A model generated the notes under the pieces. The model worked only from the letters and a program-made list of their open reading frames with translations. It was not told the origin of the DNA and did not search any database. 64,000 nt of DNA, taken from contig NZ_FOPZ01000009.1 of the NCBI RefSeq assembly GCF_900113615.1, positions 1 through 64,000 on the forward strand, in the 5' to 3' direction. The DNA is from Halorubrum aquaticum. Lineage in GTDB: Archaea; Halobacteriota; Halobacteria; Halobacteriales; Haloferacaceae. Shown piece after piece: positions 1 through 37,683 of the stretch. Every line of letters begins with the position of its first letter. The first letter of the stretch is position 1. Made by a program: the position numbers and the translations under genes.

Positions 1-2
1 AG

Positions 3-896
3 GAGGCGATCACGCGGGACAACTCGCCGGTGACCGCGGACGCGGTCGTCTACATCAAGGTGATGGACGCCAAGAAGGCGTTCCTCGAGGTCGACAACTA
101 CAAGAACGCCGTCTCGAACCTGGCACAGACCACGCTCCGCGCCGTCCTCGGCGACATGGAGCTCGACGACACGCTGAACAAACGCCAGGAGATCAACGCG
201 AAGATCCGCCGCGAGCTGGACGAGCCGACCGACGAGTGGGGGATCCGCGTCGAGAGCGTCGAGGTGCGCGAGGTCAACCCCTCGAAGGACGTCCAGCAGG
301 CGATGGAGCAACAGACCTCCGCGGAGCGGCGTCGCCGCGCGATGATCCTCGAGGCGCAGGGGGAACGGCGCTCGGCGGTCGAGCAGGCGGAGGGTGACAA
401 GCAGTCGAACATCATCCGCGCGCAGGGGGAGAAACAGAGCCAGATCCTCGAGGCGCAGGGTGACTCGATCTCGACCGTGTTGCGTGCGCGCTCGGCCGAG
501 TCGATGGGCGAACGCGCCATCATCGAGCGCGGCATGGAGACCCTCGAGGAGATCGGAAAAGGCGAGTCGACCACGTTCGTGCTCCCGCAGGAGCTCACGA
601 GCCTCGTCGGCCGCTACGGCAAGGCGCTCTCCGGCTCCGACGTCCAGCAGATGGACGGCCTCGAGGGCCTCGAGTTCGACGAGGAGACCCGCAAGATGCT
701 CGGGCTCGACGACATCGACGAGATCCTCGGACAGATCGACGAGGCGGCCCAGATGGACGTCGAGGAGCTCGAGAAGGAGGCCGAGGCGGTCAAGTCCGGC
801 GACGCGGGTTCGAACATCAAGTCGGCCGACGAGGTAATCCAGGAGATGGACGAGGACGTCCCCGAGGGCGAGGTCGAGCCGGCCGAGGAGAGCTGA
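3..896 (+). CDS. SPFH/band-7 (stomatin/prohibitin-like) membrane protein, 5' truncated
   Basis: The reading frame is open from the first bases of the window, so the N-terminus (expected membrane anchor and first part of the SPFH domain) lies upstream. The visible part begins inside the band-7 domain (ITRDNSPVTADAVVY, then KAFLEVDNYKNAV and LDDTLNKRQEIN, typical of stomatins). It continues into the heptad-like coiled coil made of repeated AQGE/AEGD units and ends in an acidic tail (DVPEGEVEPAEES). Stomatin-family proteins form membrane-bound oligomeric scaffolds, often paired with an NfeD protein and linked to membrane proteolysis. The partner gene would lie upstream and cannot be seen. Family assignment is secure; the cellular role is inference. 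Confidence 0.9.
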   Translation, partial: EAITRDNSPVTADAVVYIKVMDAKKAFLEVDNYKNAVSNLAQTTLRAVLGDMELDDTLNKRQEINAKIRRELDEPTDEWGIRVESVEVREVNPSKDVQQAMEQQTSAERRRRAMILEAQGERRSAVEQAEGDKQSNIIRAQGEKQSQILEAQGDSISTVLRARSAESMGERAIIERGMETLEEIGKGESTTFVLPQELTSLVGRYGKALSGSDVQQMDGLEGLEFDEETRKMLGLDDIDEILGQIDEAAQMDVEELEKEAEAVKSGDAGSNIKSADEVIQEMDEDVPEGEVEPAEES

Positions 897-962
897 ACCG
901 CCGATTCGACCGTTTCCGCCCCGAGCGAAGCGCTTTTGCCGGGCGATCGCGTACCACGGAGC

Positions 963-1565
963 GTGACCGAAGAGGTCGACGAACGGAAACGCCGAACCCT
1001 GCGGCGGTTCGCCGCCGTCGGAGCGGCCGCCCCGTTCGTCGGAACCGCGGGCGCCGCGGACGACACCAACGAGACCCGCGAGGCGATCCGCGGGTACGTC
1101 CCCTCGACGCCGGGCGCGCACTTCTCGAAGCTCCGGGACGACCTCCGGCTCGGCACGGGTGAGGCCCAACACCACCTCCGGACGCTCGAGGAGGCGGGCG
1201 AGGTGGAGTCGCGAAAGGACGCCGACTACCGCCGGTACTTCCCGGCCGGCCGGTTCGACGAACTCGACAAGCGGGCGCTCGGCTACCTCCGCCGGGAGAC
1301 GCCGCGGGGGATGGTCCTCGCGCTGCTCTCGGACCCCGACGCGACCGGCGCGGAGCTCGCCGACGCGCTCGGCGTCTCCCGACCGACAATAAGTGCCGCA
1401 GCGGGCGAGCTGGCCGCGGCCGACCTCCTCGACCGCACCGACGGCTACGAGCTGACCGAGCCCGAGCGGCTGTTGACGCTCGTCGTGCGGTACGCCGACT
1501 CCTTCGACGCCGACGCGGTCGCCTTCGCCGACGAGGCGGCCTCGCTCGTCAGTTACGACCCGTAG
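963..1565 (+). CDS. Winged-helix transcriptional regulator with a hydrophobic, twin-arginine-like N-terminus
   Basis: Two helix-turn-helix-like segments can be read. The first (SKLRDDLRLGTGEAQHHLRT, then EEAGEVESRKD) resembles haloarchaeal winged-helix repressors. The second (GAELADALGVSRPTISAAAG) is a classical HTH. Before them lies RRTLRRFAAVGAAAPFVG, a basic patch followed by a short hydrophobic stretch, which could be a membrane anchor or a relic of a Tat-like signal. I chose the GTG start at 963 because the upstream alternative at 936 is a non-ATG codon in promoter-like sequence (CGCTTTTGCC). Two-headed wHTH regulators of this layout are common in haloarchaea. The target is unknown. There is no operon partner; the next gene is convergent. 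Confidence 0.75.
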   Translation: MTEEVDERKRRTLRRFAAVGAAAPFVGTAGAADDTNETREAIRGYVPSTPGAHFSKLRDDLRLGTGEAQHHLRTLEEAGEVESRKDADYRRYFPAGRFDELDKRALGYLRRETPRGMVLALLSDPDATGAELADALGVSRPTISAAAGELAAADLLDRTDGYELTEPERLLTLVVRYADSFDADAVAFADEAASLVSYDP

Positions 1566-2530: not shown

Positions 2531-2550
2531 ACGGCGACCCCGTCGGGGAC

Positions 2551-3321: not shown

Positions 3322-3443
3322 CGGTGACGGGTTCGCTCCCGTCGCTCGAAAACGTTCGGATCGCGCGGGGACGCCGGATCCCCTCGAGATCCGTCGTGAT
3401 CGATCGTGTTCATTCGTCGCCCGCGCGGCGACACGTTCCGGGT

Positions 3444-3453: not shown

Positions 3454-3519
3454 ACGTTCGCCCGTCTATCGGACAAGACTGCTCCCGGGCGTTCTCGATT
3501 AACCGGGGGACAGAGAGCT

Positions 3520-4491
3520 ATGACCGAACGACTACATACCAGGGGGAGTCGCACCCGTGGGGAGACGGAGGAGGAATCGGAGAGCACCGACGAGACGCTG
3601 AGCTGTCCGGAGTGTGACGGCCAGGTCATCAACGACGAGGAGCACGGCGAGACGGTGTGTGCGGACTGCGGACTCGTCGTCGAGGCGGACTCGGTCGACC
3701 GCGGGCCGGAGTGGCGCGCGTTCGACTCCCGCGAGAAGGACGAGAAGTCCCGCGTGGGCGCGCCGACCACGAACACGATGCACGACAAGGGCCTCTCGAC
3801 CAACATCGACTGGCGCGACAAGGACGCGTACGGCCGCTCGCTCGGCGCGCGCCAGCGCCAGAAGATGCAGCGGCTCCGCAAGTGGAACGAGCGCTTCCGC
3901 ACGCGCGACTCGAAGGAGCGCAACCTCAAACAGGCGCTCGGCGAGATCGACCGGATGGCCTCGGCGCTCGGACTCCCGGACAACGTCCGCGAGACCGCCT
4001 CGGTCATCTACCGCCGCGCGCTCGACGAGGACCTCCTCCCCGGCCGCTCCATCGAGGGAGTCTCCACGTCGTGCGTCTACGCGGCCGCCCGGATGGCGGG
4101 CGTCCCGCGCAGCCTCGACGAGATCGCCGACGTCTCACGCGTCGAGAAGGCTGAGATCGCCCGGACGTACCGCTACGTCGTCCGCGAGCTCAAACTCGAG
4201 GTCAAGCCCGCGGACCCAGAACAGTACGTCCCGCGGTTCGCCTCCGACCTGGAGCTCTCCGAGGAGTCGGAGATGCGCGCGAAGGGCCTGCTGAAGAACG
4301 CCAAGGAGAAGGGCGTCCACAGCGGGAAGTCGCCGGTCGGGCTCGCGGCCGCCGCCGTCTACGCCGCCGCCCTCCTCACCAACGAGAAGACGACGCAGGC
4401 GGCCGTCTCGGAGGTCGCCGACATCTCCGAGGTCACCATCCGTAACCGCTACCACGAGCTGCTCGAGGCCGAGGACGGCCTCGTCGCGTAG
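3520..4491 (+). CDS. tfb: Transcription initiation factor IIB (TFB)
   Basis: The protein has the full archaeal TFB architecture in 323 residues. An acidic N-terminal extension is followed by a zinc ribbon (CPECDG ... CADCGLV, about residues 29-53) and the B-finger/linker region (GPEWRAFDSREKDEKSRVGAP). Two cyclin-like repeats follow (about 130-225 and 230-320); the second ends in ADISEVTIRNRYHELLE, the BRE-recognising helix-turn-helix. TFB recruits RNA polymerase to TBP-bound promoters. Haloarchaea encode several TFB paralogues that give promoter selectivity; which numbered paralogue this is cannot be told from sequence alone. The gene is monocistronic. Confidence 0.97.
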   Translation: MTERLHTRGSRTRGETEEESESTDETLSCPECDGQVINDEEHGETVCADCGLVVEADSVDRGPEWRAFDSREKDEKSRVGAPTTNTMHDKGLSTNIDWRDKDAYGRSLGARQRQKMQRLRKWNERFRTRDSKERNLKQALGEIDRMASALGLPDNVRETASVIYRRALDEDLLPGRSIEGVSTSCVYAAARMAGVPRSLDEIADVSRVEKAEIARTYRYVVRELKLEVKPADPEQYVPRFASDLELSEESEMRAKGLLKNAKEKGVHSGKSPVGLAAAAVYAAALLTNEKTTQAAVSEVADISEVTIRNRYHELLEAEDGLVA

Positions 4492-8974: not shown

Positions 8975-8995
8975 GTCGACGGCGTTTCGCGAGCG

Positions 8996-9379
8996 TTACA
9001 CCTCGACGAACTCCACGAGTACCCCGCCGGTCGACCGGGGGTGGAGAAAGGCGACCGCGTGGCCCCACGCGCCGGGTCGAGGCTCCTCGTCGACGAGGTC
9101 GACGCCGCGGTCGCGGGCCCGGTCGAGCGCGGCGGGGAGGTCGTCGGTCGCGAGCGCGACGTGGTGGATCCCCGGTCCCTCGCGCTCGAGGTAGTCGCGG
9201 ATCGGGCCCTCTTCGGCCGGTTCCAGCAGTTCGAAGTAGCCGCCGTCGAGTTCGAGGAAGACGACGCGCATTCCCTCGAACGTCTCCTCGTGGGCGACCG
9301 GCGCGTCGAGGAGTCCCGAAAACGAGTCGGCGAGTCCGGCGGCGTCACGTGTGGCGACGCCGACGTGATCGAAGCGCAT
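8996..9379 (-). CDS. mce: Methylmalonyl-CoA epimerase
   Basis: A compact 127-residue vicinal-oxygen-chelate protein, the normal length for this family. It starts MRFDHVGVATRD (metal His in beta-1) and carries LELDGGYFELLEP (metal Glu), GIHHVALATDDL (metal His) and GVLVEFVEV (final Glu). It interconverts (R)- and (S)-methylmalonyl-CoA in propionyl-CoA assimilation. The mutase large subunit is encoded on the same strand about 1.5 kb upstream, which supports this specificity over other VOC enzymes. A formate/nitrite-type channel gene on the opposite strand separates the two. Confidence 0.93.
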   Translation of the reverse strand: MRFDHVGVATRDAAGLADSFSGLLDAPVAHEETFEGMRVVFLELDGGYFELLEPAEEGPIRDYLEREGPGIHHVALATDDLPAALDRARDRGVDLVDEEPRPGAWGHAVAFLHPRSTGGVLVEFVEV

Positions 9380-9515
9380 GGGAGGTGGATGGGGCGTCTC
9401 CGACTTATAATCGAGCGGCGCGGGTCGAATCGACCCGGAGCGGCAGAGGGCGCATCGGCACGGTCCGCCCCGAGGGAAAGGTTTGGGTGCCGCCGAGCGA
9501 AAGGTCCGACGAGCC

Positions 9516-10319
9516 GTGTCCGACCAGAGCCCCGACGCACAGACGGAGCAGAAGACCTCCCGGACCGTCCTCGATACGATCCTCGACGGCGCGCTCCACG
9601 AGATGAATCGGGAGCGGTCCGGGCTGCTGCTCTCGGGGCTGTCCGCGGGCCTCGACATCGGGTTCGGCCCCCTGATGATGGCCGTGGTGTTGACGCTCTC
9701 ACCCGCCGGGTTCGGCGACCTCACCACCGAGCTGCTGTTGGCGAGCGTCTACTCCATCGGGTTCATGTTCGTCATCTTGGGCCGGTCGGAGCTGTTCACC
9801 GAACACACCACGCTGGCGGTGATCCCCGTCCTCGACGGGCAGGCGTCCCTCCGTGACCTGGGTCGGCTCTGGGGGCTCGTGTACGTCGGGAACGTCGTCG
9901 GCGGACTCCTCTTCACTCTGCTCGTGATCCTGTTGATGCCGGAGCTCGGCGTCGTGACGCCCTCGGCGTTCGAGACGATCGCGTTGAAACTCGTCAGCCA
10001 CGACCTGCCGTGGCTGTTCGTCGGCGGCGTCTTCGCCGGGTGGCTGATGGGGCTTCTGGCGTGGCTGATCACTGCCGCACAGGAGACGACGAGTCGGCTG
10101 ATACTCGTGTTGATCGTCACCGGGACCATCGGTCTCCTCCACCTACCGCACTCGATCGCGGGCAACGTGGAGGTGTTGTTCGGGCTGTTCATGTCGCCCG
10201 CGATCACCGCGATCGACTACGTCGGATTCCTCGTTTTAGCGACGGTCGGAAACGCCTTCGGCGGCGCGGTGTTCGTCGCGCTGTTGAAGTACGGGCACGT
10301 CGTCCGCGGCGCGAGCTAA
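9516..10319 (+). CDS. Formate/nitrite transporter (FNT) family channel
   Basis: About 267 residues with six hydrophobic segments and FNT landmarks: SGLSAGLDIGFGPLM in the first helix, SIGFMFVILGRSELFTEHTT with the conserved FxxxGRxxLFT-type motif, and VYVGNVVGGLLF. FNT proteins are pentameric channels for small monovalent anions such as formate, nitrite or acetate, and the ion cannot be fixed from sequence. I place the start at GTG 9516 (VSDQSPDAQ); the alternative TTG at 9483 lies in what looks like the promoter. The gene stands alone between two minus-strand genes. Confidence 0.85.
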   Translation: MSDQSPDAQTEQKTSRTVLDTILDGALHEMNRERSGLLLSGLSAGLDIGFGPLMMAVVLTLSPAGFGDLTTELLLASVYSIGFMFVILGRSELFTEHTTLAVIPVLDGQASLRDLGRLWGLVYVGNVVGGLLFTLLVILLMPELGVVTPSAFETIALKLVSHDLPWLFVGGVFAGWLMGLLAWLITAAQETTSRLILVLIVTGTIGLLHLPHSIAGNVEVLFGLFMSPAITAIDYVGFLVLATVGNAFGGAVFVALLKYGHVVRGAS

Positions 10320-24845: not shown

Positions 24846-25691
24846 TCAACTGGCATCGACATCGTCGAGAAACGTCCGTGATCGATCGAGGAGTTCCGAA
24901 CGGATCGCCTCCAGCGTCCGGCCCCCTCCGTTCCGAGCGACCAACTGGTGGCGTTCCCGGAGGAACGTCTCGAACGCCCGTTCCGCGAGAGCGTCGACCG
25001 TAACGGGGTCGCCACGACCCTCGATCCGAGTTTTGATCCGTGCGAGCTGCTCCCGATCCATGTGAGCCGTGACCGCCTCCACGGGGTCGTCACTCCCTGT
25101 CTCTTGGTCCACTGATGCCGACCGCTCCGCTCCCCGGATCACGCCTCGTCCGCCCGTCTTGTTCCGGACGACGACGCCGGCCGCGGGGCCGTCGTACCAC
25201 GCGGACGACGGGACGGCGTACGACTCGGGATCGAAGTCACGGGCGTGACGCTCGCGCTCGAAGGCGTTCACGGGATCGAGTCCGAGCCGTTCGAATATCG
25301 CCTCCGCGGCGTCCGGCGGTCGGAACGACCCCGCGTTTTCGGACCACACGTCGTGGCCGAGAAACGACGGGAGCCGGTCCCAGTCGTACTCGATCGTTCG
25401 CTGATTGGTAGCCACGCCGAAGAAGACGACGTCGGTCACGTCGTCGACCGCGCTCCGGAACGCCGCCCGGTCGAACCGCTCCCTGACGTGTCGGACCGCG
25501 TGAGCGTACCCGATCGGGAGGCTCTCCGGGTCGTCGTAGACCGTCTCGCGGTCGCCGAACCGGAGAAGTCCGGACTCCTCCATCCGGAATCGGAGATGCC
25601 AGCCGTCGATCCGCTCGAGGAGCCAGAGGTGTCCCGAGAGGAGGTTCCGGGGCGCGTCGGAAACGGTCGGAAGCGACGGATAGCGTTTCAT
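24846..25691 (-). CDS. RNA-ligase-fold protein lacking the nucleotidyl lysine
   Basis: The 281-residue protein follows the course of the nucleotidyltransferase domain of RNA ligases: an entry segment (MKRYPSLPTVSDAP), motif-I region LLERIDGWHLRF (residues 24-35), and DVVFFGVATNQRTIEYDW then LPSFLGHDVW (motif III/IIIa-like). DAAEAIFERLGLDPVNAF and a motif-IV-like GPAAGVVVRNKTG follow. The catalytic lysine of K-x-D-G is arginine (R27). The Glu expected at the start of motif IV is Ala (A171), and motif V has no K-x-K. It may bind RNA or nucleotide without ligating. I chose ATG 25691; the open frame extends upstream without coding character. Fold assignment is by motif order only. Confidence 0.62.
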   Translation of the reverse strand: MKRYPSLPTVSDAPRNLLSGHLWLLERIDGWHLRFRMEESGLLRFGDRETVYDDPESLPIGYAHAVRHVRERFDRAAFRSAVDDVTDVVFFGVATNQRTIEYDWDRLPSFLGHDVWSENAGSFRPPDAAEAIFERLGLDPVNAFERERHARDFDPESYAVPSSAWYDGPAAGVVVRNKTGGRGVIRGAERSASVDQETGSDDPVEAVTAHMDREQLARIKTRIEGRGDPVTVDALAERAFETFLRERHQLVARNGGGRTLEAIRSELLDRSRTFLDDVDAS

Positions 25692-25843
25692 GAGATGTCG
25701 AGGGGAAGGAGGTAGGGAGCGACCGGTGACGATCCCGATCGCGTCGGTGACGACTCCGGGTCGGCGTCGGATGACTCTTGTGGCGGCCGGCGGATTCGAC
25801 CGCGGAGGAAACACTCATGGCATCCGTCTGACTACTAGTCGGC

Positions 25844-28486
25844 ATGGGGAGTCCCGACGGATCCGAACCGAACCGGGAGCGACACGTCATCGACGGGACG
25901 ACCGGCCGATCCGGTCGGGTCTCTCGGCGGGGCGTGCTCCGTGGTACGGTCAGCGCGCTGTCGGTCGCCGGACTCTCGCTCGCCGGAGTCGGCGAAACGG
26001 TACCGACCGCGTCGGCGACGAACCACGTGCCGAACCGGATCGTCTGTGTCGGCTCCGACGGTGGGTCGTTGTACGTCGTCGACGCCGGGACCGGCGAATC
26101 GGTCTGGCGCTTCGACGAGCCCGGAGGCTCGGTCTCCTCCTCGCCGACCGTCGTCGACGGCGTGGCCTACGTGGGCTCCGCGGACGGGTCGCTGTACGCG
26201 GTCGACGCGACCGACGGGTCGGCCGTGTGGTCGGTCGAGGCGGGTAGCGGCGGCGAGAACGAGGGGATCGTCTCCTCGCCGACCGTCATCAACGACCGGG
26301 TGTTCGTCGGGACCGGAACGGGCGCGGTCGTCGCGCTCGACCGAAGCGAGGGAACCGAGGAGTGGCGCGTCGAGGACTCCGTGAGTGCCGTCGTCTCCTC
26401 GCCGGCCATCGACGGAGGGACACTCTACGTCGGGACGGAGACCGGCGAGATCCTCGCGCTCGCGACGTCCGACGGAACGGAGCGGTGGCGGGTCACGGCC
26501 CCAGAGGACGGGATCTCCTCGTCACCGGCGGTCGTCGACGGGACGCTCTACGTCGGCTCCTTCGACGAACGCCTGTACGCGGTCGATATCGAGGTCGGCG
26601 AGACTGTCTGGAACGCGAACCTCGAGAACGTCGTCTTCTCCTCGCCGGCAGTCGTCGACGGGACCGTCTACGTCGGCAGCGTCGGCGTCGGCGTCGGGCT
26701 CCACGCGATCGATGCCGAGACGGGCGAAGGGCGTTGGGTGACCGACGGGATCGCGGGCGTCGTCTCCTCGCCGACGGTCGTCGACGGGACCGTCTACGTC
26801 GGCTCTGTCGACGGGTCCCTGTACGCGGTCGACGCTGAAGGCGGCGATCCGGTGTGGTCGACGGGAACCGGCGACCAGATCAACTCCTCGCCGACCCTTT
26901 GGGAGGGGACGGTCTTCATCGGGAACGCCGCCGGAGAGTTGTACGGGTTCGACGCCGAGACCGGCGACCAGCGGTGGTCGTTCGACGGCGCGACGGACGC
27001 GATCTTCTCCTCGCCGACCGTCGTTGACCTCGCGAGCGACGGGCACGGCGTCGGGTCGCGGACATCGCTCGGAACGCTCGGACACCACCACGTGGCCGCA
27101 GGCATCGAGTTCGAGGGGGGTAGCGACTCCTCGGACGGATCGGGCGGCTCGACCGGCTCGTCCGGGTCGTCCGGGTCGACGGGATCGGACGACTCCACGA
27201 GCACTGACGGATCAACGGACGGAAGCGGGGAAGACGATTCCGGACAGAGCCCCCCGGCGTCGGCGGATGGTTCGGGCTCGTCGGGGTTGACCAGCCAAGT
27301 TCCTGCGGTCGGACTCCTCGGCGCGGCAGGCGGGATCACGGTCGGTGTGCTGGCAGCGTATCGGTTCCTCGGGGGGAGTTCGGACGGTGCTGCTTCGGGA
27401 TCGGACCCCGGATCCTGGCCGGGACGGTCGTCGGCAACCGACTCGGTGAACTCGGCAGGTGCCACGGATACCGTCGAACCGGAGACTCGAACTACCGGGA
27501 CCGACACGACGGAGGGCGTCGACGCTGACGCCGGTTCGGCGTCGTCCGCGTCAGAGAGTTCCTCCTCGGCCGCGTCCGCAAACGCCTCGAGCGAGCCGAA
27601 AGCCGATACGGAGTCCGTCGAGGACGCCGGATCCGAGTCCGGAGACCGGGACGGAGCCGAAGACGTGAGCGGATCCGTGGGTGGTGCCGATACCGGCGGC
27701 GCGGACGGGGACGCGTTGCTCGCGGCGGTGGACGAGCTCTCGTCGATCGAGCCGGTCGCGTCCGTCGGACCCCTCGTCGCGTACGCCGTCACCGACGAAC
27801 GGATCAACGGCGGTGATGGGCGGATCCTGGCGCTCCCGGACGCCGAGGACGACCGCGTGGAACGGTTCGGCTCCGTCGCGACCGACTGGGGCAGCGTCAG
27901 CCACTACGATGGGATCGCCACGGTGTACGGGTCGGGGAGCGATCCGTATCCGTGGGTACTCACCGACCCGATTCAGGGGGTCGCCACGCTCGCCGAGCAC
28001 CTCGACGACCCGCCGGCGGACCTCGCGGCCCGGTTGTCGCCGGTCGTCGACGCCGCCGAGGCGATGTCACAGGCCAGCCGCTACACGGTCAGACACTACT
28101 ACCTCTCGCCGGAGACGGTCCGCGTCGTCGGATCGGGCGCGGAGCCGACCGGAATCGTCGACGATTGGGGGATCGGTTCGGTGGCGGACACGCCCGATCA
28201 CGGGACGCGTGCGGCCTCGCCGTACACCGCGCCCGAACAGCTCTCCGACTCCGAGGAGCCGCTCTGGCGGGGCAAGCCCGACACGTACGCGCTCGGTGTG
28301 CTCGCGTACCACGCGGCGACGGGAAGCCCGCCCGCCGACCACCGACCCGCGAAGCCGAGCGAGCACGCCGGCGTGCCCTCGGCCCTCGATCGGCCGATAA
28401 CCCGCGCCATCGACCCGGACCCCGACGAGCGGTACGACTCGATCGGCGAGTTCGCGCGGATCCTCAGGCTGGCGGTCTTCGACTGA
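25844..28486 (+). CDS. Tat-exported PQQ-type beta-propeller, transmembrane helix and C-terminal kinase-like domain
   Basis: This 880-residue protein has a twin-arginine signal (SRRGVLRG, residues 27-34, plus hydrophobic stretch). About eight PQQ-like propeller repeats follow (residues about 65-400, each with SSPTVVDGTVYVGS and LYAVDAETG). Next come a Ser/Gly/Asp-rich linker, one membrane helix (about 487-510) and a second acidic linker. A protein-kinase-like C-lobe occupies about 623-880 (GIVDDWGIG, SPYTAPEQL, DTYALGVLAYHAATGSPP, DPDPDERYDSIGEFARIL). HRD is replaced by HYYLSPETV and no VAIK lysine is visible, so it is probably a pseudokinase. Topology implies an external sensor and a cytosolic output domain. 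It lies next to the tubulin-like operon, which encodes a related pseudokinase. Confidence 0.88.
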   Translation: MGSPDGSEPNRERHVIDGTTGRSGRVSRRGVLRGTVSALSVAGLSLAGVGETVPTASATNHVPNRIVCVGSDGGSLYVVDAGTGESVWRFDEPGGSVSSSPTVVDGVAYVGSADGSLYAVDATDGSAVWSVEAGSGGENEGIVSSPTVINDRVFVGTGTGAVVALDRSEGTEEWRVEDSVSAVVSSPAIDGGTLYVGTETGEILALATSDGTERWRVTAPEDGISSSPAVVDGTLYVGSFDERLYAVDIEVGETVWNANLENVVFSSPAVVDGTVYVGSVGVGVGLHAIDAETGEGRWVTDGIAGVVSSPTVVDGTVYVGSVDGSLYAVDAEGGDPVWSTGTGDQINSSPTLWEGTVFIGNAAGELYGFDAETGDQRWSFDGATDAIFSSPTVVDLASDGHGVGSRTSLGTLGHHHVAAGIEFEGGSDSSDGSGGSTGSSGSSGSTGSDDSTSTDGSTDGSGEDDSGQSPPASADGSGSSGLTSQVPAVGLLGAAGGITVGVLAAYRFLGGSSDGAASGSDPGSWPGRSSATDSVNSAGATDTVEPETRTTGTDTTEGVDADAGSASSASESSSSAASANASSEPKADTESVEDAGSESGDRDGAEDVSGSVGGADTGGADGDALLAAVDELSSIEPVASVGPLVAYAVTDERINGGDGRILALPDAEDDRVERFGSVATDWGSVSHYDGIATVYGSGSDPYPWVLTDPIQGVATLAEHLDDPPADLAARLSPVVDAAEAMSQASRYTVRHYYLSPETVRVVGSGAEPTGIVDDWGIGSVADTPDHGTRAASPYTAPEQLSDSEEPLWRGKPDTYALGVLAYHAATGSPPADHRPAKPSEHAGVPSALDRPITRAIDPDPDERYDSIGEFARILRLAVFD

Positions 28487-28595
28487 GCGACCGTCGTACG
28501 TCGGGTGGTCGGGCCCCCGTGGCCGTTCGGTTCGATATCGATATCGAGAATAGATGGACAAGTGATATATCTGTCGGAGATGAATGTGTCACTGT

Positions 28596-29264
28596 ATGCC
28601 ATCACGTCGTCGATTCCTGGTTGCGGGAGCCACGGCGGGGACCATCGCTCTCAGCGGGTGTACCGACGCCGTCGAGATCGCGACACAGGAGGAGATCGAG
28701 CGGTCGGCGGAACCGGCGGAGCCGGCAGAGTCGAGCGTCGAGGAGACCGGCTTCGAGGAGGTCCGAAACGAGACGGTGGTCGTCGAGGAGGAGTTCGAGG
28801 AGTTCGGGCAGCGCCGGGAGTTCACCGCGCGAACCGAGGTCCGCGCGTACCTCCGGGAGATCCGGTCGGACTTGACCGGCCAGGAGCAGTCGGTGTTCGC
28901 GGTCGTGAGCACGCCCGGCGTCTCCGCCGCCGGCCAGCAGCTAAGTCCGCTCGCGAACATGGACGAGGAGGAACTGATCGAGGAGGCGCGCGGCGAGATA
29001 AGCGCCGAGTACGACGGCGAGATCCGGGACCCGGAACGCGTCGAGACGATCGAACAGGAGGTGTTCGGCGAGACCACGGAGGTGAGCGTCTACGAGGCGA
29101 CCGTGGTCCTCCCCGACGGCACTGAGGAGCGGGGATACATCCATCTCACCATCGTCGAACGCGGCGAGGACGTGGTCCTCGTCGCCGGCGCGTATCCTGC
29201 GGGCGTCGAGGGGGAACGCGAGCGGATCGAGCGCCTCTTCGAGTCGTTGGAGGGAGACGAGTAG
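28596..29264 (+). CDS. DUF6517-like haloarchaeal lipoprotein
   Basis: A 222-residue protein with a textbook Tat lipoprotein signal: MPSRRRFLVAGATAG, hydrophobic core and lipobox ALSGC. The mature part is acidic and alternates predicted strands and helices (TGFEEVRNETVVVEEEFEEF, FAVVSTPGVSAAGQQL, YEATVVLPDGTEERGYIHL), matching the haloarchaeal DUF6517 family as I know it. It is anchored on the outer membrane face. An in-frame ATG four codons upstream (28584) is an alternative start, but 28596 places the twin arginines in the usual position. It follows the propeller/kinase-like gene on the same strand and converges on the tubulin-like operon, 25 bases from its end. Confidence 0.82.
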   Translation: MPSRRRFLVAGATAGTIALSGCTDAVEIATQEEIERSAEPAEPAESSVEETGFEEVRNETVVVEEEFEEFGQRREFTARTEVRAYLREIRSDLTGQEQSVFAVVSTPGVSAAGQQLSPLANMDEEELIEEARGEISAEYDGEIRDPERVETIEQEVFGETTEVSVYEATVVLPDGTEERGYIHLTIVERGEDVVLVAGAYPAGVEGERERIERLFESLEGDE

Positions 29265-29289: not shown

Positions 29290-31314
29290 TTAAGAGGCAG
29301 TCTCTGAACTGGACTGCTCGAGTTCAATATCTAGCTCTTGTGAATTCGCCCCGGTAATGCGGATATCTCCCGAAATCGTCTCGTATCCATCTGCCTGAAT
29401 TTCGACGACGTACCAGCCGTCCGGTGGGATTCCGGTGATCTCGTACCTACCTGCCAAATCGCTCGTCGAACTATAGACCTCTCCCGGATCGACGATCACT
29501 TCGACGGTGGCATTCGCGATTGCGGTCCCATCGGTATCACTAATCTTTCCATCAAGTGTCGCACTCGGTAGTGGCTCAAGTTCGATCGGTTCCTGTTCAC
29601 CGAACGATTCAATGGGTCGTTCGACTGGATCGTATCGATCAGCAGTCGCACGTAGCGTATAATCCCCGCTCGGATCGATAGTGAACTCATAACTTCCACC
29701 TGTGGTCGAATCCACGGTCTCGCTGTTTTTAACTAGTTCAATCGACGCGTCGACTCCACCATCGCCATCCGTTGAGAGCGGTTCTCCCGTTTCCGCGTCA
29801 GCGACTCGGCCGGACACTGTCGCACTGAGCGGTTCAATTTCAGTTCCGTTCGTTCCGTTCTCGTCGACCTCGATCTCTTCGGTTCCATACCTGAAGACAC
29901 CGGTCGATCCGACGGTGACTTCGTAGGTCCCAGTCGGGACGTTCCCAAAGACGAATCTCCCGCCGTCCGTCACCGTCGTGTTCGTCTGACCGTCGGTCTC
30001 ATTCCCGTTTATGTCAGAAACCCGTTCGATGGTGACTTCTACGCTCGAATCGATCGGCTCTCCGTTCGCGTTGACCACGCTCCCGATGATAAATGGGGTG
30101 CTTGGACCGGTGTCGCCGCCCCCGCCGCCTCCGCCGCCGATCAGCCCGAGCGCGCTCGCGCCGAAGAACCCGCCGACCAACACGATCAATACGACCGCTC
30201 CGATGAGGAGGTATTTCCCGATTTTTACGGAAGATCTCGTTGATCTACTGCTGTCCCCGTCGGAATCATCAGTCGTTTCGTCGGCGGTAGACACTTCCCG
30301 ATCGTCAGCCGATCCTTCCTCTTCGGAACTCCTCTCGTTATCGGCCCTCTCCGACTTATCCTCGACGTTCTCTTCGTCGTCGATCCCATCCTCGCCGGAG
30401 GGTTCCTCCGTATCCGTATCCTCGGTACCATCGAGATCTCCGCCATGCTCGTCATCTTTTCCATCCAGCGGCGGGAGCCCGGAAACGACGCGCTCCTCCC
30501 GCGGAACCCTCGGCCGCGCGTCGACCAGATCGCGACGGAACTGGTACGCCCCGTCCTGTCGGTCGTCCGGATCGATCGACATCGCGTCACGCAGGACCCG
30601 ACGGAAGTCCTCCGGAATCTCCGCCGGGTCGTCTCCGATCCCGTCTCGGATCGCGTCCTCGAGGGGTCGATCCGCGTCGGCGAACGGTGGTGATCCGGAA
30701 AGGAGATGGTAGCCGAGCGCGCCGAGCCGGTACACGTCGGTCTGCCTGCCGGCGTGGTTCCCGTCGTCGAACTGTTCGGGAGCCGTGTACGGTGTAACCG
30801 GCGGGTCGGTAACGAGCCCGCTGATCCCCCAATCGTCCACGACCGCTGTCGGACCGCTCGGGTCCTCCCGGAAAACCACCGATTCCGGACCGATCCGGAG
30901 GTGGTACGGGGTCGATCCGTAGCGACCGTAGCTCCGGATCGCCTCACAGACGTCACCGAGGAGGTCGGTACGCGTCGCGAGGTCACACTCGAGCGCGGTC
31001 TCGACGCTCCCACCGTTCGCGAGCGTCTTGAGTTCGCCGGGGACGGACTCGACGGCGACCCATGGCTCGGGGTCGGTTCCCCAGTCGACGAGCGTTCTGA
31101 CGGTCTCGCGGCCGGAGACGTTCTGCCACTGCGTCGCGAGCGAGTCGAACCGGTCGTACTCGTCCTCCGGAACCTCCCCGCGAAGCGACCTGACGGCGGC
31201 CACGTCGCCGTCGGCGGTTCGTCCGTCGAACGTCTCCCAGTGTGTTCTTGTCCCGACCCGCTCACCGGTTGTGATCGTCTGGTTGGTTCCGGTGAGAGTT
31301 CGGTCGGAGCGCAT
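29290..31314 (-). CDS. Single-pass pseudokinase with external carboxypeptidase-regulatory-like repeats
   Basis: Residues about 25-265 form a protein-kinase-like domain: YHLRIGPESVVF in place of HRDxKxxN, VVDDWGISG in place of DFG, TPYTAPEQFDDG (APE), and DVYRLGALGYHLLSGSPPF. With VAAVRSL where VAIK would be and no HRD aspartate, catalysis is doubtful. An acidic linker (about 280-360) precedes one membrane helix (about 368-392) and a glycine run. Three or more CarboxypepD_reg/Ig-like repeats follow outside (GSVVNANGEPIDSSVEVTIE, SGRVADAETGEPL, GKISDTDGTAIANATVEV). It is the last gene of the four-gene operon and starts 2 bases after the preceding stop. The 3' half is visibly less GC-rich than the paralogous region in the upstream gene. 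Confidence 0.88.
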   Translation of the reverse strand: MRSDRTLTGTNQTITTGERVGTRTHWETFDGRTADGDVAAVRSLRGEVPEDEYDRFDSLATQWQNVSGRETVRTLVDWGTDPEPWVAVESVPGELKTLANGGSVETALECDLATRTDLLGDVCEAIRSYGRYGSTPYHLRIGPESVVFREDPSGPTAVVDDWGISGLVTDPPVTPYTAPEQFDDGNHAGRQTDVYRLGALGYHLLSGSPPFADADRPLEDAIRDGIGDDPAEIPEDFRRVLRDAMSIDPDDRQDGAYQFRRDLVDARPRVPREERVVSGLPPLDGKDDEHGGDLDGTEDTDTEEPSGEDGIDDEENVEDKSERADNERSSEEEGSADDREVSTADETTDDSDGDSSRSTRSSVKIGKYLLIGAVVLIVLVGGFFGASALGLIGGGGGGGGDTGPSTPFIIGSVVNANGEPIDSSVEVTIERVSDINGNETDGQTNTTVTDGGRFVFGNVPTGTYEVTVGSTGVFRYGTEEIEVDENGTNGTEIEPLSATVSGRVADAETGEPLSTDGDGGVDASIELVKNSETVDSTTGGSYEFTIDPSGDYTLRATADRYDPVERPIESFGEQEPIELEPLPSATLDGKISDTDGTAIANATVEVIVDPGEVYSSTSDLAGRYEITGIPPDGWYVVEIQADGYETISGDIRITGANSQELDIELEQSSSETAS

Positions 31315-31316: not shown

Positions 31317-33056
31317 CTACGACTGGGACGGATCGAGTTCGAAGTCCTCCTCGAAGACCTGGTTCTCCTCGCTGAAGTCGACGGTCCGCGATTCTGTCTC
31401 GTAACCATCAGCGCTTACTTCAACCCGATATTTCCCGTTCGAGGGGATCCCAGTGACTTCGTATTCTCCGATCAGGCTGGATGTCGCCGTTCGGACGTCA
31501 CCCGGAGCGATCGTCACCTCGACAGTCGCAACATCGATCGCATTCCCGCTCGTGGCGTTGGTGACCTTTCCTTCCAGGGCCACGCCCGTCGATTCCTCCT
31601 CTTCTGAGACCGTGTCCGTCGATTCGAGTTCGATCGGTTCCTGCTCGCCGAACGATTCCACGGGCCGTTCGGCCGACTCGTACCCGTCGGCGCTGGCGCG
31701 CAGCGTGTAGCTCCCGTCGAGACCGACGGTGAACTCGTAGCTCCCGCCGGTCGCGGAGGCAACGGTTTCGTTGTTTCCGCCGACGAGTTCGACCGACGCG
31801 TCGATCTCGCCGTCGCCGTTGGTCGAGATCGGGTCGTCCGTCTCCGTGTCCACGACTTGGCCGCTCACGATTCCGCTCGCCGGCGAAATCTCGAGATCGG
31901 TCGTGTTCCCCGGGACCTCGACCGACCGATTGTCGTACGCGAACCGCTCCGTCGACTCGACCGACAGGGTGTAGTTGCCGGCCGACACGTTCTGGAAGGC
32001 GAACTCTCCGCCATCAGCCGTGACTGTCACCGGTTCCGGCGCGGTCTCGTTCCCAGTGGGGACGGCGGCCGGTTCGAGAGTGACCTCGGCGCCCGTCGTC
32101 AGCGGCTCGTCGTTGGCGTCGTAGACGGTCCCGTTGACCGTGGCGGCGATATCGCCACCCCCACCACCGAGATATCCGAGCTCGCTGGCGCCGACGAACC
32201 CGCCGATCAACACGATCAACACGATCGCGCCGATGGCGACGTACTTGCCGATCTCCGCCATGTCGAACCGGCTTGAGGAGCCCGCACTCGAGAGCCGGTC
32301 GGTCGTCGAACCGCCCGAACTCGGGGCGCTCAACGCGGGGACGCGCTGGCTCACTCGCCGACGGATCTCCGAACTCGAGAGGCCGTGCTCCCGCGAGAGC
32401 GTCTGGACCGACTCGTTGATCGAGGCGATCTCCTCGTCGATGAGACGGCTCCGGATCGACTCCTTCGTCGACTCCCACCGTTCCTCGGTGTCGCCGACCG
32501 GGGCGATGGCACTCGACCCGTTCGGGGCGACGACCAGGTCGAAGTCCGACAGTGCGTTCGACTCCGGCGAGTCGGCGACGGCGGCGCGGTTGTACGTGCC
32601 CATGAACTCGTTGACGAGTCCGAGCGCGTTCTCGGCGTCGCGCACGCCGACGGTCCCGCCCTGTCGCGAGCCGATCAGCTCCTCGAGGATCGCGCGGTCC
32701 TGATCGCTTCCCGGAAGCGAGGTTCGGCCGGCATCGAGCGCCCGGAAGACGCTCATGTCGTCGGCGGAGTCGTCTATGGTGTACCCCCACTCGGTCTCGA
32801 TCCGGTCCCGCAACGCGTCGATGAACTCCCGCATCGAGCCGTCCCGCGTCGTGTACACGGCGTAGAACTGCTCAGTGCGCGCGTTCCGGGTCTCCCGCGC
32901 CCGGAAGAAGGTCGTGAACTTGCGCTCACGACCCGTCTCGATGGCGAGTCTGACCCCGTCGTAAAACAGGTCCTTCACCCGCTCGTTCGACCGGCCGGCC
33001 TCGCCTGTCGGCGAGTGTTCGTTCCCTTTCGTGTCGTATATGCGTAGTGATGGCAT
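31317..33056 (-). CDS. Single-pass protein with unknown cytosolic domain and external carboxypeptidase-regulatory-like repeats
   Basis: Residues 1-260 form a soluble domain I do not recognise (RVKDLFYDGVRLAIETGRER, REFIDALRDRIETEWGYTI, LVNEFMGTYNRA), ending in a helix-rich Ser linker. One membrane helix (about 270-295, AIGAIVLIVLIGGFVGAS) and a Gly run follow. Three CarboxypepD_reg-like repeats come after that (VNGTVYDANDEPLTTGAEVT, SGQVVDTETDDPISTNGDG, EGKVTNATSGNAIDVATVEV), expected outside the cell. From the membrane helix onward it is paralogous to the next gene product, sharing SFGEQEPIELE, while the cytosolic domains differ. It sits 6 bases after the GTPase gene and 2 bases before the pseudokinase gene. 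Confidence 0.85.
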   Translation of the reverse strand: MPSLRIYDTKGNEHSPTGEAGRSNERVKDLFYDGVRLAIETGRERKFTTFFRARETRNARTEQFYAVYTTRDGSMREFIDALRDRIETEWGYTIDDSADDMSVFRALDAGRTSLPGSDQDRAILEELIGSRQGGTVGVRDAENALGLVNEFMGTYNRAAVADSPESNALSDFDLVVAPNGSSAIAPVGDTEERWESTKESIRSRLIDEEIASINESVQTLSREHGLSSSEIRRRVSQRVPALSAPSSGGSTTDRLSSAGSSSRFDMAEIGKYVAIGAIVLIVLIGGFVGASELGYLGGGGGDIAATVNGTVYDANDEPLTTGAEVTLEPAAVPTGNETAPEPVTVTADGGEFAFQNVSAGNYTLSVESTERFAYDNRSVEVPGNTTDLEISPASGIVSGQVVDTETDDPISTNGDGEIDASVELVGGNNETVASATGGSYEFTVGLDGSYTLRASADGYESAERPVESFGEQEPIELESTDTVSEEEESTGVALEGKVTNATSGNAIDVATVEVTIAPGDVRTATSSLIGEYEVTGIPSNGKYRVEVSADGYETESRTVDFSEENQVFEEDFELDPSQS

Positions 33057-33062: not shown

Positions 33063-34505
33063 TCACCCCATCTTCTCAAGGAGTTCGTCGAATCCGACGG
33101 TCATCACGTTCCCGTTGCGGTCGCGCATCGGGACGCGTTCGCCGTTCTCGTCGGTCGTCGTCTGGTAGTACACCGGGTGGATCTTCGACCCGGAGGTGTC
33201 CTGTACGAGCGTCCGAACCGTCTGGTTGTTCTCGATCAGCGTCTCGCTGACGAACTCCTGGAACTCGTCGAAGTACTGGTGTGCCTCGAGCGCCTGCTTG
33301 TCGCGGAACTCCTCGGCGAGGATGTCACACTTCGTCGCGACCAACAGCACGTCCTTGTTCGAGGCGACGTCCAGAATGTCGAAGTACGGCTCTATCTCCA
33401 GCGGCTCGTTGTTGTGGTACCGCTCGACGTCGATGATCAGGATCAGCGTGTTGGCGTCCCGAACCCGCTGGGCGAGCAGCCGGAGCGTCGAGTTGTCGAT
33501 CTCGTCGTCCGGGCTCATCAGTGCGTTCGGCAGCCGTTCGAGGTACTCGCCCGCGTAGTCGAGGCTCGACAGCTCGATGTTCTTCGGGAACACCCGGCCG
33601 TCGACGAAGTTGAAGTTCAGGTCCTCGACGTCGGTCTGTCCGGTCGCGTCGAGCTTCCAGCCGGTGTCCTTCGACGCCGCGTCGAGCGAGCCGACCAGCT
33701 CCATGAGGTCGCTGCTCGGGTTCAACGGCGTGTCGGCCTCACGGCCGACCGCGTCGTCGAGCGCGGCAAGGTACTTCCCGACGAGGAAGAGCGACTTTCC
33801 GGAGCCCTGCGGGCCCAGAACGAAGAAGTTCTCCTCGGCGTCGTAGGTCACGAACCGGCGCAGCGTGACCACGAACACCGCCGCCATGAGCGTGTTCACG
33901 CCGATGCTGGCCCACTCGACGCTCACGTTCGGAGCCGGCGGAACGATCTGAACGGTCTCCGCCGAGACCTGGAGGAACTGCGGAAAGTTGACGTGGAACT
34001 CGATCAGCCCGCCGACGACGATGGCGCTGATCAGGTAGAACAGGATCGTCGCGGACCGCCGGAACTCGAGCGCGCTCGCCGTCCGGACTTCGAGGAGTTT
34101 CGGGCCGCCGCCGACGAGTCCGCCGCCGACGAAGCCGCCGAGGACCCACACGATGTTGGCCGCGAAATCGATGTTCGGGATGAACAGCCCGATGGACAAC
34201 AGCGCGACGAGCGCGGAAACGGTACCCAGACACAACAGGATCCCCTGGACCCGTTTCTTTGGGTCGAGAGTCACGAGGACCAACAGCCCGAGATAGAGTC
34301 CGAACATCAGCGCGGAGAACTGTTCGAGGGTGACGCCCACGAGCGGGTTCAACGCGAGGATCGCCGGTCTGACGATGTCCGACGCCTGCCACGCCTCCCC
34401 GAGCGAGAGGAAGAGCGGCCCGGCGACGATCACCATCACGGCGAAGTACACGACGAGAAAGACCTTCTCGCCGTTCTCCTCGAGGAACTCACCGATCGTC
34501 GTCAT
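33063..34505 (-). CDS. Polytopic membrane protein with C-terminal P-loop GTPase domain
   Basis: The N-terminal 220 residues hold about six membrane helices. A Ras-like P-loop domain follows: FVLGPQGSGKSLF (Walker A, residues 231-238), SLDYAGEY (G3-type DxxG, 316-319), ANTLILIIDVERYH, and LVATKCDIL (G4-type TKCD, 391-394). The G4 motif indicates GTP over ATP. A charged C-terminal extension (YYQTTTDENGERVPMRDRNG) ends the protein, 480 residues in all. Its gene lies 7 bases after the tubulin-like gene and 6 before the next, so the products are made together. I infer a membrane switch that could recruit or regulate the tubulin-like polymer. Confidence 0.87.
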   Translation of the reverse strand: MTTIGEFLEENGEKVFLVVYFAVMVIVAGPLFLSLGEAWQASDIVRPAILALNPLVGVTLEQFSALMFGLYLGLLVLVTLDPKKRVQGILLCLGTVSALVALLSIGLFIPNIDFAANIVWVLGGFVGGGLVGGGPKLLEVRTASALEFRRSATILFYLISAIVVGGLIEFHVNFPQFLQVSAETVQIVPPAPNVSVEWASIGVNTLMAAVFVVTLRRFVTYDAEENFFVLGPQGSGKSLFLVGKYLAALDDAVGREADTPLNPSSDLMELVGSLDAASKDTGWKLDATGQTDVEDLNFNFVDGRVFPKNIELSSLDYAGEYLERLPNALMSPDDEIDNSTLRLLAQRVRDANTLILIIDVERYHNNEPLEIEPYFDILDVASNKDVLLVATKCDILAEEFRDKQALEAHQYFDEFQEFVSETLIENNQTVRTLVQDTSGSKIHPVYYQTTTDENGERVPMRDRNGNVMTVGFDELLEKMG

Positions 34506-34512: not shown

Positions 34513-37500
34513 TCACTCCCCCCCGTCCAGCGTCTCGGAGGGCGCATCGGTCTTTTTCGCCCCGTCAGTGAACGGGACGTTCTCGATGTGCTCCTCCAGG
34601 AGATCGCGTTTGATCTCGCCTTCGTCGCGGAGGAAGAACTGGGTGTCGTTGGGGTTCTCGAGGTTCAACACGTTGTTCCGGCGGACGTAGTATCCCTCGT
34701 CGAGGCCGTAGGTGTGGTGGACCAGGATGTCGGTGTCGTCGGACGCTTCCTTGGCTTGATATCCGGTCTGGTAGCCGTCGGCTTCGACCTCCGCACGGAG
34801 GTTGTCCAGGAAGATCCCGTCGATGAATATCCCGAGTCCGATGTCCCAGCTGCCCCCGGCTTCAACCGGGAACGACGCGAAGTTCTCGCTTCCCGCACCC
34901 AGGTTGTATGCGCCTTGGAAGACGGGTTTGAGGTCGGCCACGTCGCCGATCTGGTTTATCGCCCGGCTCATCACCCCGACGACAATGTTCATGTCGTTGT
35001 AGCGGGAGCGGTCGCCGCTGATCCGGCGTTTCCGGATCCCGGTGTACTTGGGGTTGTGCGCGTTCTTCGCGAGCTCCTCGAGGGAGCCGCGGAGCCGCTG
35101 TTTCTCCGTCTCGTCGTCGAACAGCTTGCTCTCCGCGATGTCCGAGTCGTCCCGGAGCTGGAGGATGTCGTGCGGCTTGACCGTCTTGACGTAGTGGTAC
35201 TGTTCGTCCTCCGTCGAGACGGAAGTCTCTCGGCTCTCGTTGTAGTTCTCCCGCAGATTCCGGTACTTGCTCTGTGAGTTGATGAACGCGTCGCGCGGAC
35301 CGTTGAGCTCCTCGAAGAGGCTGACGGTCCCCTCGTACAGATCGGCCTTGTGTTCCGCGTCCTCGAGGTCCGACTGTAGCTCGTCGCGGCGACGCTCGAT
35401 GTCGTCGGTCTCGATGACCTCGTCTTTGACCAGCTCCTCGAACTCGTGTTCGAGTTCGGAGAAGCTCACGCCCGAGTCGAGTCCCCGCTCAATTTCGTCG
35501 AGCGCCCGCGGACTGTCCGTCTCGAGCTCGGCGCGCGTCTCCGCGAGGATGTCGCGGCGGCGGTCCTCGACCTCCTCGTCTATCGTCCGGTTGAGGGTGC
35601 CGGTGGAGAACTCCAACTCGATCGACAGCGAATCGCCCGCCCGAGAGATCTCGAACACCTCGTTGTCGTCAAGCTGGTTCCGCTTCATCCGGTAGTTCTT
35701 CTGTGCCTGCTTGCGCTCCTCCTCGCCAGAAGTGTCCCACGGGAGGATGGACTCGATGGTGCCCTCCTCCTGGTTCATCTTGAGGAACGCCTCCTTCGCG
35801 TCCGCCAGGTCGGCGAGCGAGCCGTTTATCCGGCGTTCGGTGTCGGAGATGCTGATCCCGACTTGGTCGAACTCCTCGGAGAGCTCGTTGAGGACGCTCC
35901 GGACGTCCCCATCGCTGACCGCCTCCAGCTGGTCTTCGGTCTCCGCGTTCTTCACCTCGCGGACGTACGTCTCGAGGGCCATCTCGAGTTCGTCGCCCAT
36001 CCCTTCGGCGTCGATCGACCGACACTCGTCGTACTCCTCGTACAGCGAGCGGACCGACCGCTCCCACTCGTCGACGCGACGGTCGACCTCGTCCTGTTGG
36101 GACCGTCGCCGCTCCTCGAGTTCGGCGTCGGCGTCGTCGAGATCGGACTGAAGCCGGTCCCGACGTTCGGTGGCCTCCTCCAGTTTGGCCTCGAGCTGGT
36201 TGAGCCGGACGCCCGCGTTGATCCCCTCGTCCTCCAACGCGAGGAGGTAGCTGATCGTGCTCTCGACGCGGTTGTCGTCGACCGCGCGGAGCCGCACGAG
36301 CAGGTCCTTCCGATGGGCGAGGCGGTTCAGCTCGTCGCGGATCACGTCGCCGAGCTGCTTGTCGATGCTGTCGACGAACTGCTCGCCGTCGCTGCTCACC
36401 TCGGCGGTACCGGCGCGGATCGAGCCGCCGATCACCTCGATGAGCTCGACGATGTCCTCGGCCTCCATCTCCGCCTCCGAGACGATCTCGCGGTAGATCG
36501 AGACCGACTCGTAGTCGAGCTCGGTGAAGAGGTCCAACTCGAGCAGCGACTTCACGTTGTTGAGCCGCGTCTCGAGGTCCGTCCGGTCGGAGTCGTGGAG
36601 CTCGCCCTTCATGCCGTCGGGGCTCCACTCGCGCGAGAGGAACCGGTCGACGCCGGCGTAGATGTCCGCCTCCGCCTCGAGGGCGTCCTGTTTGGCGTTC
36701 AGGATGTCCTTCGTGACGGTCTTGGCGTCCTGGATCGCGTCGACGTTGTACCGGAGGACTTGCGGGATCCCGATGATGAACGGGGCGTAGGAGGGCGTGT
36801 CCGCGAACGGGTCCTCCATGTCCATCATGTTGTAGTAGGTCGCGATCAGGTAGATCGCGGCACGGTCGAACTCTAGGAGGGCGTCGGAGCTCTGGAGGAT
36901 GTTGGCCTTCTTCCCGCCGAACCCGGTTGGGTCGATCGGGATGAGGATCCGGTCCTTGAACAGGTCCTCGTCCTGGAGGCTGAGGTACTCCAGTTCGGAG
37001 AGCGCGGCGTGGGCGTTCGCGTTCTCCGCGTCCCCCTCGTCGTCGTTCGGCAACACGCCGAACAGCGTGATCTCCGCGGTCCGCTGCGTGCGCTTGAGGT
37101 GTTTGACGAGGTCGATGAAGATCCCCGAGCCGGAACCGCCGCCGAGCCCCGCGATGACTGCGACCTTCCCGCGGCCCGGGAGGTCGATGGCCGTCCGCAC
37201 GTCGTCGTCCTCGGCGTACGCCTTGTAGTAGAGTCCCTTCCCCAGTCCGCGCTTCCGGACGACGCCGGTGGCGAAGTCGAGGTTCTCGTTGATGAACTCC
37301 GGTTGGAGCCACCAGTTCTCCTCCTCCATGCCGACCCCCGAAGCAATCCGCGGCACCGCCTCCTCGCCGATGAGGTCGTTCTGGTCGTGGAGCTGGATGT
37401 TCCGGGTGAGCGGAAGGTACTCGATCGTGATCTCTCCCGGCCGACCGGTGTGTTCCGACCGGAGCCGGTCTTTGGTCTCCTGGATCTGCTGTTCGATCTC

Positions 37501-37683
37501 CTTGATCCGTTCGAGGTCGCGGTTCTCTTCCTCTTCCGCCGTGTCTATCACGGTCACCGTCAACGACTCGGGGTTCGGGCGGGGCCGCAGGACCGCCTCC
37601 TGGACCCAATCGGCTTTCAACAACTCGTACGTAATGGCCTTCCCAGCACCCCCGATCGCAAATATCCTGCTTGGGAGATTCAT
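34513..37683 (-). CDS. Large tubulin/FtsZ-like GTPase with long coiled-coil middle region
   Basis: The N-terminus reads as a tubulin-superfamily nucleotide-binding domain: IFAIGGAGKAITYELL (T1 loop, GGAGK at 11-15 from ATG 37683) and VAVIAGLGGGSGSGIFIDLV (T4 signature GGGSGSG, 181-187). ITLFGVLPN, YLIATYYNMMD and FIIGIPQVLRYN follow. This resembles the Pfam family called Tubulin_2 ('tubulin-like doman-containing') rather than FtsZ or CetZ. Residues about 360-890 are mostly charged helix with clear coiled coils (about 490-545, 700-725, 760-800). A C-terminal domain (about 895-1040: MNIVVGVMSRAINQIGDVAD, GAYNLGAGSENFASFPVE) may complete the tubulin fold. At 1056 residues it is more than twice FtsZ. 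ATG 37683 is preferred over TTG 37695 because a TATA element lies 30 bases upstream. First gene of the operon. Confidence 0.9.
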   Translation of the reverse strand: MNLPSRIFAIGGAGKAITYELLKADWVQEAVLRPRPNPESLTVTVIDTAEEEENRDLERIKEIEQQIQETKDRLRSEHTGRPGEITIEYLPLTRNIQLHDQNDLIGEEAVPRIASGVGMEEENWWLQPEFINENLDFATGVVRKRGLGKGLYYKAYAEDDDVRTAIDLPGRGKVAVIAGLGGGSGSGIFIDLVKHLKRTQRTAEITLFGVLPNDDEGDAENANAHAALSELEYLSLQDEDLFKDRILIPIDPTGFGGKKANILQSSDALLEFDRAAIYLIATYYNMMDMEDPFADTPSYAPFIIGIPQVLRYNVDAIQDAKTVTKDILNAKQDALEAEADIYAGVDRFLSREWSPDGMKGELHDSDRTDLETRLNNVKSLLELDLFTELDYESVSIYREIVSEAEMEAEDIVELIEVIGGSIRAGTAEVSSDGEQFVDSIDKQLGDVIRDELNRLAHRKDLLVRLRAVDDNRVESTISYLLALEDEGINAGVRLNQLEAKLEEATERRDRLQSDLDDADAELEERRRSQQDEVDRRVDEWERSVRSLYEEYDECRSIDAEGMGDELEMALETYVREVKNAETEDQLEAVSDGDVRSVLNELSEEFDQVGISISDTERRINGSLADLADAKEAFLKMNQEEGTIESILPWDTSGEEERKQAQKNYRMKRNQLDDNEVFEISRAGDSLSIELEFSTGTLNRTIDEEVEDRRRDILAETRAELETDSPRALDEIERGLDSGVSFSELEHEFEELVKDEVIETDDIERRRDELQSDLEDAEHKADLYEGTVSLFEELNGPRDAFINSQSKYRNLRENYNESRETSVSTEDEQYHYVKTVKPHDILQLRDDSDIAESKLFDDETEKQRLRGSLEELAKNAHNPKYTGIRKRRISGDRSRYNDMNIVVGVMSRAINQIGDVADLKPVFQGAYNLGAGSENFASFPVEAGGSWDIGLGIFIDGIFLDNLRAEVEADGYQTGYQAKEASDDTDILVHHTYGLDEGYYVRRNNVLNLENPNDTQFFLRDEGEIKRDLLEEHIENVPFTDGAKKTDAPSETLDGGE

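Follow-up and report, generated by a model that had tools for sequence, protein, structure and literature searches.

A protein of the FtsZl1 (Tubulin_2) family encoded in the window (the whole stretch of 64,000 nucleotides of Halorubrum aquaticum DNA that was analysed) carries a long helical stalk, and we are confident, on the basis of predicted structures, that this stalk splits a tubulin fold whose C-terminal domain would resume after the insert. The original prediction had set two readings side by side, a C-terminal domain parted from the N-terminal one by a stalk-like insert or an independent C-terminal domain. The former is favoured by a full-chain model, a control model of residues 1-355 alone, and a paralogue that lacks the stalk. 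The protein is laid out as follows.

34513..37683, minus strand: FtsZl1/Tubulin_2 family protein, 1,056 aa (Pfam PF13809 and homologues).
36748..37683, minus strand: residues 1-312, nucleotide-binding domain with strands S1-S6, candidate core helix H7 (262-286), and strand S7 (302-312) (AlphaFold2 model; alignment to CetZ/FtsZ).
37639..37653, minus strand: T1 loop GGAGK, residues 11-15 (sequence; G11 and G14 invariant in 34 homologues).
37123..37149, minus strand: T4 tubulin signature loop GLGGGSGSG, residues 179-187 (sequence; invariant glycines; hhalign to FtsZ/CetZ).
36793..36828, minus strand: candidate T7 zone, residues 286-297 (MMDMEDPFADTP), with acids D288, E290, D291, and D295 (just before S7 in the model; acids vary among homologues).
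36748..36780, minus strand: strand S7, residues 302-312 (FIIGIPQVLRY), formed in the full model and all but lost without the post-stalk part (DSSP, full model compared with the 1-355 model).
35191..36747, minus strand: residues 313-831, helical stalk predicted to be inserted in the C-terminal domain, with long helices at 490-556 and 760-816 (model, heptad test, length conservation).
34513..35190, minus strand: residues 832-1056 and stop, predicted rest of the C-terminal domain of tubulin type, with strands at 899-905, 935-940, and 947-957, and a C-terminal extension (model; also found in the paralogues L032 and L060, which lack the stalk).

The gene is an open reading frame of 1,056 codons on the minus strand, with its ATG at 37683 and its stop at 34513. 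Its product scores 38.6 bits against Pfam Tubulin_2 (PF13809, cut-off 27) and 25.8 bits against Pfam Tubulin (PF00091), under the cut-off of 33; all 34 homologues match Tubulin_2 and 33 of the 34 match Tubulin. Given the sub-threshold PF00091 score and a C-terminal domain apparently split by 519 residues, the protein is not an FtsZ or CetZ proper, and separate Tubulin/FtsZ-family genes are also found in the Halorubrum aquaticum genome (3.18 Mb, assembled in 40 contigs). Tubulin_2 exceeded its cut-off in 66 of the 295 genomes in a sample of the phylum. Homologues with 93-95% identity occur in Halorubrum species and in one Halobellus, and the stalked close homologue is patchily distributed within the genus Halorubrum. 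Synonymous changes prevail in comparisons with three homologues (dN/dS about 0.13 to 0.2), a pattern by which the stalked protein is judged to be under purifying selection. We also noted that the gene is broken into two frames at three loci (L040, L055, and L013), in the MAG scaffolds A07HR67 and A07HB70 and in genome G031, which reflects either sequencing error or real disruption.

A wholly new kind of protein, the novelty that the original prediction implied, was rejected, since both the family and exactly this layout were published in 2010 (PMC2875224); comparison with FtsZ, CetZ, and tubulin alone had missed the family that fits, FtsZl1/Tubulin_2. The window protein is a haloarchaeal member of this family, known since 2010. 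FtsZl1 was described by Makarova and Koonin, with Huta_2051 of Halorhabdus utahensis as the founding haloarchaeal member (PMC2875224), and Tubulin_2 proteins rooted the superfamily tree in a later evolutionary study, which remarked on their irregular architecture (PMC9871819). Compared by its published description, Huta_2051 resembles the window protein in length (1,051 and 1,056 aa), in its N-terminal FtsZ-like domain with a GGGTG(S/T)G loop, in its coiled coil (445-781 in Huta_2051) and C-terminal globular domain, and in having GTPase and kinase genes as neighbours.

The two glycine-rich loops that the original prediction placed in the first 190 residues are indeed there, GGAGK at residues 11-15 and GGGSGSG at 181-187. 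Since G11, G14, G181, G182, G183, G185, and G187 are invariant in the 34 homologues, the loops are not a chance occurrence. The T4 region aligned by hhalign with FtsZ/CetZ over 73 columns at 34% identity, and sequence profiles cover only about residues 160-255 of the stalked protein. We predict that the protein binds nucleotide, and consider this highly probable.

The profile alignment with FtsZ and CetZ stops at S6, so T7 is not placeable by profiles; because residues 302-312 form S7 in the model, we put the T7 zone at 286-297. This same assignment ruled out NVDAIQD (313-319) as the T7 loop. In the search for the T7 acid that the original prediction proposed, 33 of the 34 homologues had acids in this zone (one has none), and the close group mostly retains EDPFAD or a similar motif, but the position is not fixed outside the close group. 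A T7 catalytic acid is plausible in the close group. In the filament formers among FtsZ, TubZ/RepX, and tubulin, the T7 acid is fixed.

The full-chain AlphaFold2 model, built with the 34 homologues (mean pLDDT 84.5, pTM 0.64), has strands at 6-10, 40-47, 84-91, 173-179, 204-211, and 244-249, the order expected for S1-S6. The further globular part, which had been placed at about 895-1040, is present and spans about 832-1037; it is mixed alpha/beta in the model, with strands at 899-905, 935-940, 947-957, and 998-1002. For this model, the PDB matches listed by Foldseek are tubulin-superfamily structures. VIA-align superposed it on 323 of the 334 residues of CetZ2 (4b45; Z 22.9, rmsd 3.9, model 3..983, chain 1..341), gave Z 22.8 with CetZ1 (4b46), and covered 291 of the 304 residues of Bacillus subtilis FtsZ (2vam; Z 21.6, rmsd 3.8). 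The FtsZ alignment runs over model 3..957 and chain 12..315, and its end in the model lies beyond the stalk. Thus, the predicted model has a two-domain tubulin fold.

We weighed against this a reading with two separate units, a truncated GTPase domain of tubulin type in the N-terminal part and an independent C-terminal globular domain that the stalk carries at its end. Such a reading would agree with the 2010 analysis, in which no similarity to FtsZ C-terminal domains was seen, T6-H7 could not be identified, and the region from S6 to T7 was judged not fully compatible with known structures (PMC2875224), as well as with the confinement of profile matches to the T4 neighbourhood. The control model speaks the other way. 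Residues 1-355 alone matched 197 of the 334 residues of 4b45 (chain 1..228) and 202 of the 304 residues of 2vam (chain 13..227), compared to 291-323 FtsZ/CetZ residues filled by the full model out to 957-983, so that about 90-125 residues of the reference folds come only with the rest of the chain. Moreover, S7 is no longer a strand once the rest of the chain is removed: only two residues of 302-312 remain as strand, and pLDDT over blocks of 291-320 falls from 88, 96, and 83 to 61, 75, and 69. These residues would come from the post-stalk part, since no other strands of any length could supply them. With the additional evidence of a paralogue that retains precisely the two flanking parts (below), we regard an independent domain as improbable. 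Nor do residues 1-350 form a complete non-tubulin Rossmann fold, the outcome named in the original prediction as its refutation; the 1-355 model matches tubulin and FtsZ, incompletely. Because VIA-align prints ranges and not residue pairs, topology after S7 at residue level is inferred from strand order, by which the insert would follow S7 at the place of the M-loop and H9 of tubulin. A sequence search of the post-stalk part against the PDB matched no solved structure, and the only matches in a viral structure library were to phage tubulins and to generic coiled-coil proteins.

If the domain is split, the two flanks should be able to stay joined without the stalk, and this is what we observed in a second family member of Halorubrum aquaticum, L032 (559 aa, contig C31 3928-5613; also labelled L089 and L100), and in its Halorubrum rubrum counterpart, L060 (562 aa, 8001-9686; 72% identical to L032). 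In local BLAST, both align with the window protein from residue 1 to about 325 at 37-44% identity and then from about 800 to 1044 at 30% (E about 1e-25), and the stalk is missing from both. Local BLAST was used instead of MAFFT, which aligned the C-terminal domain of the paralogue with the stalk or the N-domain. The stalkless paralogue occurs in 2 of 52 Halorubrum genomes, those of Halorubrum aquaticum and Halorubrum rubrum. Its frame is intact, but a degenerate T4 loop (GGATSG) and a dN/dS of about 0.5 indicate that its function may be relaxed. As a stalkless relative in the same genus, it offers a natural comparison for what the stalk does.

The original prediction described long coiled coils from about 490 to 800. 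The long helices at its two ends, 490-556 and 760-816, are heptad-periodic, but residues 557-759 appear in the model as broken helices and two very short strands, and the stalk is therefore not a single unbroken coiled coil. The region between the globular parts also contains a helix at 314-352 and shorter ones, and heptad periodicity exceeded that of shuffled sequences in 314-352 (P = 0.004), 490-556 (P = 0.023), and 760-816 (0 of 2,000 shuffles). Measured from the end of S7 to residue 831, the insert is 519 residues in the window protein, 516-521 in 21 close haloarchaeal homologues (identity down to 36%), and 406-633 over all 34. Within the close group, the two long helices align over 66-67 and 57 residues. 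The stalk middle (557-759) is the most variable section; in a bacterial WOR-3 homologue (L070, from a MAG, 876-3731) this middle is 109 residues compared to 203, with long helices of similar length. As its two ends return to one domain, the stalk is expected to be a hairpin; the model's pTM of 0.64 fits more than one stalk direction. The hairpin would project from the side that bears the M-loop and H9 in tubulin, and the nucleotide face would stay unobstructed.

Among known proteins, CetZ is the best fold match of the model (4b45, 4b46, and 3zid; 318-323 residues, Z 22.8-22.9) and provides the closest sequences among solved structures, but CetZ proteins are contiguous, about 350-395 aa, and stalkless, whereas the window protein is interrupted and falls below the Pfam Tubulin cut-off. 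FtsZ, TubZ/RepX, and tubulin share with it the superfamily fold and the T4 signature loop with its surroundings; unlike it, they have a contiguous two-domain fold with no 500-residue insert. Within FtsZl1 itself, the 2010 paper described the last domain as mostly helical and did not identify T6-H7-T7, whereas in the model S7 precedes the stalk and more strands follow. Whether FtsZl1 proteins have T6-H7-T7 and a tubulin-type C-terminal domain, and hence a capacity for filaments, was the question raised in 2010, and the either/or of the original prediction is the same question. In reply to a reviewer, the 2010 authors named three possibilities: elements that exist in diverged form, filaments made by a new mechanism, or no filaments at all (PMC2875224). 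The models favour extreme divergence of the T6-H7-T7 elements, with candidate residues named above, and suggest where the second half of the tubulin fold sits, which is new relative to the 2010 description.

Three genes lie downstream of the tubulin-like gene on the same strand.

33063..34505, minus strand: GTPase-like membrane protein of 480 aa in which five predicted TM segments precede a P-loop domain (GPQGSGKS) (weak AAA_16/Era matches; hydropathy; adjacent in close-group loci).
31317..33056, minus strand: 579-aa protein with an N-terminal domain of ~270 aa, one TM segment, and three carboxypeptidase-regulatory-like (Ig-like) domains (Pfam PF13620; hydropathy; third gene of the conserved operon).
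29290..31314, minus strand: 674-aa protein with a kinase-like domain, one TM segment, and carboxypeptidase-regulatory-like domains (Pfam/NCBIfam/PADLOC kinase matches; hydropathy).

The order of tubulin-like protein, TM-GTPase, and Ig-like TM protein holds in nearly all close-group loci, and a PDB sequence search with the 480-aa GTPase found nothing. GTPases are frequent in FtsZl1 operons and a vWA-domain protein occurs in the majority (PMC2875224). The window operon agrees with the family in having a diverged GTPase and a protein kinase; it differs in that no vWA match was found among the neighbours scanned with Pfam, a component that the 2010 description does not make universal.

The conservation of the operon points to a possible scaffold that depends on GTP and is associated with the membrane. 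The stalked protein may bind GTP and join the TM-GTPase and the neighbouring single-TM surface proteins in a membrane assembly, and the stalk would space or bundle subunits or reach partners. The TM-bearing neighbours fit a membrane complex, in agreement with the membrane remodelling role predicted for FtsZl1 in 2010 (PMC2875224). We found no functional data for any family member in the open-access literature searched. The explanation as a whole, a near-complete FtsZ/CetZ fold with a split C-terminal domain and a scaffold role, is in our estimate probably right; filament formation by the stalked protein could go either way, leaning slightly to the negative, and a role in membrane scaffolding or remodelling is predicted tentatively. 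As a conjecture that we hold with some doubt, FtsZl1 proteins generally may be complete tubulins, with a long hairpin stalk breaking their C-terminal domain between S7 and the strand that follows, that form GTP-dependent filaments carrying regularly spaced lateral arms, an arrangement described for no tubulin-superfamily protein in the open-access literature searched.

We considered that the protein might bind nucleotide and form no filaments, the stalk oligomerising it into a fixed membrane complex such as a ring or dimer. Helix H8 was not seen between 286 and 302 in the model and the T7 acid is not fixed, features that serve longitudinal contacts in FtsZ and tubulin, and the partner proteins are membrane proteins; yet the remaining fold elements are present and the close group keeps its acidic EDPFAD-like motif in the T7 zone, leaving this a possibility that we take seriously without preferring it. 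A place in a conflict (defence) system, as a nucleotide-binding component for assembly or sensing and not as part of a cytoskeleton or of membrane remodelling, seems unlikely. Bacterial GAP1-N2 systems have a similar gene set, comprising a tubulin with a coiled coil, a DO-GTPase sometimes with N-terminal TM segments, and FNIII/TM partners (PMC7159879); the window locus likewise joins a tubulin with a coiled coil to a GTPase and adjoining TM partner genes, and the patchiness of the stalked homologue within the genus would suit such a system. The coiled-coil or helical domain of GAP1-N2 tubulins is described as a C-terminal fusion, whereas the window protein has an inserted stalk. Against a conflict system, the profile of GAP1-N2, the component by which the closest of these systems is defined, has no match in the Halorubrum aquaticum genome (3 of 295 genomes of the phylum match), PADLOC models match neither the tubulin, the GTPase, nor the third gene, the kinase-like genes hit only the kinase components of such models, and a variable effector gene was not seen.

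Several minor features were noted in and around the operon. ARAGORN reported a tRNA-Arg at 33550-33636 on the plus strand, opposite and within the GTPase coding frame, which is probably a false positive. The usual HRD motif is not obvious in the kinase-like domain at 29290-31314 on the minus strand (YHLRIGPESV ... VVDDWG), which may be a pseudokinase. Related to that protein is an 880-aa protein at 25844-28486 on the plus strand, often found close to the tubulin operon, which combines a PQQ-type beta-propeller, a single hydrophobic segment, and a C-terminal region that is kinase-like. Between the two kinase-like genes lies a lipoprotein-like DUF6517 protein (28584-29264, plus strand), conserved beside the operon in several Halorubrum loci, and a 322-aa protein at 24846-25814 on the minus strand, with a sub-threshold RNA_ligase match (20.8 bits compared to 27), is conserved beyond the operon in Halorubrum loci.
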